From NCBI GenBank assembly GCA_019637805.1, contig JAHBVB010000002.1, forward strand, positions 389,981 to 453,980: DNA of 64,000 nt, written 5' to 3'. Both the position numbers and the translations under genes were made by a program. The notes beneath the pieces are model-generated. The model was given only the letters and a program-made list of their open reading frames with translations, did not search any database and was not told where the DNA came from. Position 1 is the first letter of the stretch, and every line of letters begins with the position of its first letter. Shown piece by piece: positions 18,939-39,324 of the stretch. Origin of the DNA: Anaerolineales bacterium. GTDB taxonomy: Bacteria; Chloroflexota; Anaerolineae; Anaerolineales; UBA11579.

Positions 18939-18964
18939 TGTCATCCTGAGCGTAGCGAAGGACT
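18939..18964 (+). repeat. Half copy of the TGTCAT-type interspersed repeat
   Basis: The sequence begins TGTCATCCTGAGCG and continues TAGCGAAGGA, the same arm found in the paired elements near 27.0 and 38.5 kb. No matching inverted arm was seen before cofD, so this is a degenerate or half element. Confidence 0.6.
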
Positions 18965-19008
18965 TGATTCGCACCTAAGCTGATAGTCATCAGCTTGTTC
19001 CCTCGTGA

Positions 19009-26913: not shown

Positions 26914-26967
26914 TGTCATTGCGTCGTCGCCCCAGCGCTTCGCGCTGGTACACTCCTCGCAATGACA
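26914..26967. repeat. Short inverted-repeat element A
   Basis: The ends TGTCATTGCG (26914-26923) and CGCAATGACA (26958-26967) are perfect inverted repeats. The centre contains a second palindrome, AGCGCTTCGCGCT. The whole 54-bp unit can fold into a hairpin. It lies just after the alpha/beta-hydrolase stop codon. Confidence 0.8.
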
Positions 26968-26976
26968 ACAACCTTG

Positions 26977-27060
26977 TGTCATCCTGAACAGCGTGCTCGT
27001 TGCAGGCCACGCAATGACGAAAGCGCTATGCGGGGATCCTTCACTGCGCTCAGGATGACA
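26977..27060. repeat. Short inverted-repeat element B
   Basis: The ends TGTCATCCTGA (26977-26987) and TCAGGATGACA (27050-27060) are perfect inverted repeats around an 84-bp unit. An internal ACGCAATGACG matches the end of element A, so B appears to contain part of an A-type element. It lies directly upstream of the mocA-like gene. Confidence 0.8.
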
Positions 27061-27086
27061 CGCATTGATCATGACGAAGTTGCGCT

Positions 27087-38367: not shown

Positions 38368-38385
38368 GTTGCACTACTCTGGGTT

Positions 38386-38527
38386 TGTCATTCCGGGCGC
38401 AGCGAGGAATCCGTATTGCGTTTGTAAGAAACACCATCACATGAGGTCTGCCCCTCCAGATAGGGCTGATTCTCAACCGTCTTTGCACGGATTTCTCGTC
38501 GCAGCTCTGCTGCTCCTCGAAATGACA
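38386..38527. repeat. Inverted-repeat element, tandem copy 1
   Basis: A 142-bp unit bounded by TGTCATTCCGGGCG on the left and CTCCTCGAAATGACA on the right, with inner inverted arms AGCGAGGAATCCGT and ACGGATTTCTCGTCGC. It shares long identical stretches with copy 2 just downstream. It has no coding potential. The 38256-38729 gap holds only the hppA leader and promoter and these two elements. Confidence 0.85.
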
Positions 38528-38533
38528 AAAACG

Positions 38534-38686
38534 TGTCATTCCGAGCGTAGCGAGGAATCCGTATTGCGTTTGTAAGAAACACCATCACATGGGCGGCCTC
38601 TTCCGGACAAGGCTGATTTCTCAGTCGCCCGGCACGGATTTCTCGTCGCAGCCAGCTGGGCGTGGCTCACGCTCCTCGAAATGACA
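38534..38686. repeat. Inverted-repeat element, tandem copy 2
   Basis: A 153-bp unit with the same ends (TGTCATTCCGAGCG and CTCCTCGAAATGACA) as copy 1, six bases after it. The stretch from about 38550 to 38591 is identical to copy 1; the centre differs. It ends 44 bases before the GIY-YIG nuclease gene. Confidence 0.85.
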
Positions 38687-38717
38687 AACACGCCTTATCA
38701 GTTCGACTGGTATGCCT

Positions 38718-38723
38718 TATAGT
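38718..38723 (+). promoter_or_regulatory. -10 box directly upstream of the GIY-YIG gene
   Basis: TATAGT ends 6 bases before the ATG at 38730, supporting that ATG over the one at 38712 and a leaderless message. Confidence 0.5.
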
Positions 38724-38729
38724 AAATCC

Positions 38730-39023
38730 ATGGCGCAGCAGGGGAAGTATTACATCTACATCCTGAGCAACCCCACGGGCACGCTTTACACCGGTGTCAC
38801 TAACAACCTTGAGCGGCGAATCTGGGAGCATAAAGCGCGCGCCAATCAAGGTTTTGCCAGCAAATACAAGATCGATTTGCTTATGTACTATGAAGAATTT
38901 GACTTTGTCGAGGATGCCATTGCTCGCGAAAAGCAAATCAAAGCCTGGCGTAGAGAAAAGAAGCGCAATCTAATCGAGACGACCAACCCCACCTGGCAGT
39001 ACCTCAGCCACGATTGGTTCTAA
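38730..39023 (+). CDS. Small GIY-YIG nuclease domain protein
   Basis: A 97-residue protein made of a GIY-YIG domain alone: KYYIYILSN (GIY part), TLYTGVTNNLERRIWEHK (YIG part with the conserved Arg), and the catalytic-type Glu in AIAREKQIKAWRREKK. Similar small proteins are widespread and their roles mostly unknown. It lies 44 bases after two tandem inverted-repeat elements, an arrangement that could mean the nuclease acts on or moves the elements; this is inference. Confidence 0.88.
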   Translation: MAQQGKYYIYILSNPTGTLYTGVTNNLERRIWEHKARANQGFASKYKIDLLMYYEEFDFVEDAIAREKQIKAWRREKKRNLIETTNPTWQYLSHDWF

Positions 39024-39024
39024 G

Positions 39025-39324
39025 CTACAGCCCCTTGCCGCCCAGGGTGCGCAGTTCCGCCCGGTCAGACATGCCGGCAATCAGCGGGCGCGCCTGGGCG
39101 ATCAGCGCCTGGGTCTCTTCCGGAGCCAGCGAGGCTTGGTGGCTCTCGGCGCTGGTCCACACTTCGCTGACCCAAATGCCCTCTGGGTCGGCCGCATCTT
39201 CGCTCACGATATAGATGAGGCAATCGGGGTTGGCCTGCATGGCTTCCGCCGCCTGCAATAAAAGCTCCAGCAGGGCGGGGCGTTTGCCTGTTATAGCGCT
39301 GATTTTTCCGTGTAATCCATACAT
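39025..39324 (-). CDS. Antibiotic biosynthesis monooxygenase (ABM)-domain protein
   Basis: A 99-residue dimeric-barrel protein of the ABM/YgiN type: MYGLHGKISAITGKRPALLELL at the start and GIWVSEVWTSAESHQASL in the middle. Such proteins include quinol monooxygenases and heme-degrading enzymes, but many have no known activity. The ATG at 39324 is chosen because TATAAT lies 6 bases upstream. The gene ends one base from the convergent GIY-YIG gene. Confidence 0.85.
   Translation of the reverse strand: MYGLHGKISAITGKRPALLELLLQAAEAMQANPDCLIYIVSEDAADPEGIWVSEVWTSAESHQASLAPEETQALIAQARPLIAGMSDRAELRTLGGKGL

Follow-up and report, generated by a model that had tools for sequence, protein, structure and literature searches.

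A stand-alone GIY-YIG nuclease and TGTC/CGTC-tagged hairpin repeats as a candidate selfish pair

A small GIY-YIG nuclease gene that lies beside or between hairpin repeats in many phyla looks like one half of an undescribed selfish nuclease-repeat pair. We put at nearly four in five the probability that the 97-residue protein described here and the TGTC/CGTC-tagged hairpins around its gene form such a matched pair, REP/RAYT-like in its organization, in which the protein would read the hairpin stem through residues 72-74. The gene was associated with the tagged hairpins, its two flanks tended to carry the same stem, the insertion was polymorphic among related strains, the protein was under purifying selection, and the residues in question covaried with bases of the stem. 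The CGTC/TGTC-tagged REP repeats were described in 2013 as having no dedicated enzyme, and the GIY-YIG protein, present in many phyla, is a candidate for it.

The repeats and the GIY-YIG gene in the window

The window (the whole 64-kb stretch of DNA analysed) contains two repeat units in direct tandem, starting with TGTCATTCCG and ending with CGAAATGACA, whose first 58 bases are 97% identical (Table 1). These two units of 142 and 153 bp, with inverted ends and placed before a GIY-YIG gene, had been described from the sequence and were confirmed, with 43 bp separating unit 2 from the gene; an alternative upstream ATG is found at 38712. The left-end hairpin consists of an unpaired TGTC followed by an ATTCC/GGAAT stem, a small internal loop and an inner stem, and the right-end hairpin, read inwards, of TGTC and an ATTTC/GAAAT stem. 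Each unit is therefore mixed, with one ATTCC and one ATTTC arm, which counts against a matched-pair reading. Unit 2 folded better than 200 out of 200 shuffled sequences (z -3.3), the fold of unit 1 being weaker (z -1.9). An inverted pair of tagged hairpins around a spacer is also the architecture of the REPINs of Pseudomonas. No Rfam family matched anywhere in the window.

Table 1 Features of the window and their positions.
Feature	Position	Strand	Description
Lone tagged hairpin	18939..18965	+	TGTCATCCTGAGCGTAGCGAAGGA, half unit
Short inverted unit	26914..26967		stem type ATTGC, related to units 1 and 2
Inverted unit	26977..27061 (about)		stem type ATCCT, related to units 1 and 2
Inserted block (approximate extent)	38371..39026		missing in five congeners; a sixth, G013, keeps a remnant left by an internal deletion
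Unit 1	38386..38527	+	142 bp, REPIN-like: two tagged hairpins in inverted orientation (left stem ATTCC, right stem ATTTC) around a spacer
Unit 2	38534..38686	+	153 bp, architecture as unit 1, centre different
GIY-YIG nuclease gene	38730..39023	+	stand-alone, 97 codons, PF01541 match 6.9e-15

Related units had also been pointed out earlier in the window, at 26914-26967 and 26977-27060, together with a half unit at 18939. All of them are present, but the two inverted units have other stem types and must be regarded as relatives, not copies, of units 1 and 2. An exact search with the window hairpin retrieved only the two window units from the genome of the source organism (G000). Strict motifs thus miss part of the family, and searches were made with degenerate ones instead. 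A genome-wide count of the elements, proposed as a check by the original prediction, showed that YGTCAYNSYGAG matched 49 times and its reversed pattern only 5 times, and ten other congeners had 51-236 tag matches each, figures that refer to the short motif and not to whole repeats. Arrays were also seen elsewhere: three direct copies of a CGTCATTGCGAGGAG unit with 106 bp spacing in the source genome (C1:89397-89620, L207), and a tandem array of seven CGTCACCGCGAG matches, all in one direction and about 63 bp apart, in G127 (C2:8440-8825).

The profile match and the catalytic Tyr, Tyr, Arg and Glu assign the window protein to the GIY-YIG nuclease superfamily: Y10, Y20, R30 and E67 were invariant or nearly so in an alignment of 52 sequences. 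N86, K71, R75 and K78 were also conserved. Its AlphaFold (AF2) model had a mean pLDDT of 91, and the closest folds were those of the UPF0213 proteins and of SLX1, a structure-selective nuclease acting on branched DNA. In this model, the turn joining the helix of the catalytic Glu67 to the last helix consists of residues 72-74, which adjoin the invariant Lys71, Arg75 and Lys78. Such a position would suit base contacts, and we propose A72-W73-R74 as the stem-reading triad of the window protein.

Association of tagged hairpins with small GIY-YIG genes

The genome of the source organism (2.34 Mb in five contigs) holds four small GIY-YIG loci and UvrC. A tagged hairpin was found within about 300 bp of all four small loci and none within that distance of UvrC; the same pattern was found at small GIY-YIG loci of relatives in the organism's family. 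One of the four small genes, of GSR type (L005, C2:166488-166753), is frameshifted; a relative that shares its flanking repeat is intact in G013 (L036).

A cross-phylum set of 80 loci, from named genomes of many phyla, was obtained from one contig scan. In a motif-free test, the left flank of each locus was aligned to the reverse complement of its right flank and the best score taken; in 27 of 74 loci, this inverted-pair score was higher than at any of the 329 control positions. Hairpins were then defined explicitly as C/T-GTC followed by a six-base stem with a complementary arm. By this definition they occurred on both sides of 48 of 100 GIY loci (at least one locus, L037/L055, was entered twice) and of none of 492 random positions in those loci, the values for any side being 77/100 and 29/492, respectively. 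Against the neighbouring genes of the same loci, the difference was 36/74 to 2/146 for both sides and 61/74 to 14/146 for any side. After enlargement and deduplication of the set, 138 of the 175 subfamily genes had a hairpin on at least one side and 81 on both, which are lower bounds, since several loci negative under the strict match carry variant tags. Tagged hairpins were found at none of 27 distant GIY-YIG relatives in viral contigs, UvrC genes in the comparison had almost no tags, and no flanking tagged repeat was seen by eye at E. coli K-12 yhbQ. The original prediction had named a lack of statistical association between nuclease gene and repeats as its refutation and, in a sample of loci dominated by Chloroflexota, it survived these counts.

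Among 251 Chloroflexota genomes, the median tag excess over the reversed control was 72 in genomes with the gene and 14.5 in those where no relative was found (p 3e-9). Several tag-rich Chloroflexota genomes were nevertheless found without a small GIY-YIG gene. One of them, G139, has 722 tag matches, many of them paired hairpins, and only UvrC-like GIY-YIG genes; its repeats could be orphans, have lost their gene or depend on another enzyme. In the stretches L285-L289 of this genome the paired hairpins are of the TGTCATTCTGAGCGCAGCGAAGAATCT type, with hundreds genome-wide.

Variation of the tag itself was also noted. Related genes at L024, L039, L038, L027 and L041 are accompanied by hairpins with other tags (TTTGCCAT, TTCATCC, TGTCTTTG and TGTCGCCC), the tag varying between gene clades. 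A different hairpin repeat, GGTCGAGTAG...CGTATCGAGACC, stands on both sides of the small GIY-YIG gene at L015 (G004 contig 96, flanks of 786-1061), and the gene-repeat arrangement may include another repeat family.

Insertion polymorphism and a proposed matched specificity

The inserted block of the window lies between MPPase and monooxygenase genes. In G014, G011, G007, G006 and G005 it is absent and the flanking genes join across a short spacer, while G013 retains one hairpin fused to about the last 40 bases of the gene, with one flank 98% identical, a remnant of an internal deletion. A second gene of the family was found between two genes that we take, from reading the flanking proteins, to be scpA and scpB. 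It is present in G005, G007, G008, G011 and G012, where one or two paired-hairpin units stand before it; in G000, G013, G014 and G010 scpA and scpB overlap or abut with nothing between them, and G006 has a solo hairpin and no gene. At the same junction in G009 (L272), a decayed GIY-YIG 3' end and one hairpin were observed. Presence and absence of a gene at one site among relatives, the criterion applied to homing endonucleases, was thus observed at two loci, and the prediction that insertion sites should vary was borne out by the five congeners lacking the window block and by the scpA/scpB insertion, present in five genomes and absent from others. No right-hand repeat was present at the window or scp sites, where the insert ends at the stop codon of the gene, and no target-site duplication was seen at these two aligned sites, whose flanks have diverged. 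The DNA downstream of L002 was considered as an additional empty-site probe and dropped, as it matched a paralogous gene family. Among the five intact scp copies dN/dS was about 0.04-0.13 (dS being saturated in some pairs), indicating that the protein has been kept functional.

The hairpins flanking one gene have a common stem and different loops. The six stem bases were identical between left and right hairpins in 32 of 50 pairs, when 7 were expected and the maximum in 5000 shuffles was 16. Mutual information between protein residues and the stem was strongest at residues 73 and 74, with 72 near the top. Disjoint nearest protein pairs differing in stem bases 4-5 were then compared with pairs sharing them, relatedness being corrected by this pairing only and not by a full phylogenetic model. 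The best 3 of the 95 columns were 72, 73 and 74 (p 3e-5, 8e-4 and 6e-3, uncorrected for 95 columns). For bases 3-5, columns 74 (p 2e-6) and 73 (p 9e-4) led and column 72 came sixth.

The associations were specific as to residue and base. Gly73-Ser74 occurred with GC at stem bases 4-5 in 19 of 19 cases, an aromatic residue 73 followed by Leu, Thr, Ile or Val74 with CT in 26 of 28, and an aromatic 73 followed by Arg74 with CC or TC in 36 of 40. In tables uncorrected for relatedness, Leu, Thr, Ile or Val at position 74 accompanied T at base 5 in 22/24 versus 4/86, and G73 accompanied G at base 4 in 21/21 versus 5/90; Lys or Arg72 was enriched with C or T at base 6 (11/23 versus 2/88). A natural swap was provided by L105 and L111, whose proteins, 80% identical outside the triad, combine VKT with ATTCT and GGK with ATTGC, respectively. 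When stem classes were defined by bases 3-5, the triad was across phyla little better a predictor than relatedness. Bases 4-5, on the other hand, were common to the most distant protein of the same residue-73/74 class in 86 of 123 cases and to the nearest protein of another class in 49 of 129, so for these two bases the triad was the better predictor. The covariation of residues 72-74 with stem bases 4-6 suggests direct recognition and goes beyond the original proposal of a REP-like family acted on by the adjacent nuclease, which the association and the two polymorphic loci support.

In the mechanism that we propose, residues 72-74 would read the outer hairpin stem at bases 4-6 after the tag, the protein would nick or cut the hairpin or a cruciform, and new intergenic sites would receive, through host repair or replication, a copy of either the unit that bears the gene or the paired-hairpin unit that lacks it. 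Cleavage, the cut position, the copying route and the selfish character of the pair are inferences; to our knowledge, no strand-joining chemistry has been described for GIY-YIG enzymes, and the copying route is therefore a guess. More broadly, and with somewhat less assurance, we consider it probable that such single-domain nucleases, with a code relating residues 72-74 to bases 4-6, make up a widespread unrecognised selfish class from which much of the CGTC/TGTC REP superfamily across phyla originates. If so, repeat-making systems arose at least twice, from unrelated nucleases. Two proteins and two hairpins would suffice to test the recognition hypothesis, and the system could provide very small, retargetable hairpin-specific nucleases.

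Alternative readings and comparison with known systems

GIY-YIG is a classic homing-endonuclease fold, and a free-standing endonuclease might simply cut pre-existing repeats and have its gene copied in by recombination, the repeats being docking sites or having moved by other means. Repeats without the gene in some genomes, the solo repeat of G006 at scpA/scpB where others have repeats plus gene, and flanking repeats sharing a stem and differing in the loop would all fit. Gene and repeats are, however, jointly absent from G000, G013, G014 and G010 at scpA/scpB, and five genomes have neither at the window site, no pre-existing repeat being left in these places; moreover, strains differ in how many paired units lie beside the gene, which implies that the repeats move too; we consider homing by itself unlikely. 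Even less probable is that a host nuclease of the SLX1/YhbQ kind, structure-selective and engaged in repair or repeat control, resolves cruciforms of these repeats, with the linkage a matter of regulation or convenience. The kinship of fold with UPF0213 and SLX1 and the strong purifying selection agree with it, but the patchy presence, the empty sites, the occurrence in one genome of several paralogues, every one beside a distinct repeat type, the pseudogenes and the remnants fit a mobile element and not a housekeeping gene.

It is hardly credible that these are just ordinary terminators or hairpins with a regulatory role, associated with the gene as a by-product of intergenic location: the repeats are intergenic and do fold, but neighbouring genes of the same loci had them on both sides in only 2/146 cases, and the conserved unpaired tag, the left-right agreement and the covariation with residues 72-74 find no place in this explanation. 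On the controls (0/492 random positions, 2/146 neighbouring genes), an origin by chance or as terminators was rejected. We give equally little credence to a module of the addiction or restriction type, with repeats that would protect or regulate the nuclease; the gene does usually lie beside its own sites, but a partner gene is absent and the repeats are also dispersed away from the gene.

The matched nuclease-repeat pair that we favour can be compared with several known systems. Free-standing GIY-YIG homing endonucleases of the I-TevI type share the nuclease domain and the selfish spread between sites, whereas the present protein has no separate DNA-binding domain and no intron, recognition being proposed to lie with three residues of the nuclease domain itself and the element's own hairpin to be the target. 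UPF0213 proteins (BH0048 1zg2, EF2693 1ywl, E. coli YhbQ) and SLX1 are alike in fold, size and catalytic residues, and differ, in the case of E. coli K-12 yhbQ, by the lack of flanking tagged repeats. In the REP/RAYT systems (REPtron, TnpA-REP), an enzyme gene is likewise flanked by matching repeats and gene-less inverted-hairpin pairs are dispersed. RAYTs, however, belong with the HUH tyrosine transposases of the IS200/IS605 group, and GTAG stands at the end of the repeats that they match. The gene adjacent to our repeats encodes no HUH tyrosine transposase, the GIY-YIG enzyme lacking HUH chemistry, and the tag is TGTC/CGTC and not GTAG, so the architecture is REP/RAYT-like without membership of that group.

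A 2006 survey of GIY-YIG proteins raised the question of whether further members are molecular parasites. The CGTC-tagged REP superfamily, which includes Neisseria dRS3 and Rickettsia RPE-4/RPE-6 (PMC3733652), was characterized by a CGTC/TGTC tag, AT at the start of the stem and head-to-head dimers, and was concluded to have no dedicated transposase (Di Nocera et al. 2013, PMC3733652). That paper is cited in two later surveys, of HUH enzymes in 2018 and of REPs in 2025, neither of which mentions a GIY-YIG enzyme. Among open-access full texts, none joined GIY-YIG nucleases to REP-type repeats and none contained both GIY-YIG and 'extragenic palindromic'; the novelty is provisional, being judged on these texts. 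The present repeats agree with the CGTC REPs in the unpaired CGTC/TGTC tag, the A-T start of the stem, the head-to-head dimers and the intergenic location. L116, L054, L059 and L090 show the superfamily's long stem, its short loop and the CCA tail, with a stem of 8-9 bp and a loop of 4-5 nt at L116 (8 bp) and, by eye, at L054 and L059, whereas in the window the outer stem measures 5 bp and leads into an internal loop and an inner hairpin that varies. The 2013 paper found no dedicated enzyme for the superfamily; here, the repeats have a GIY-YIG gene attached to them.
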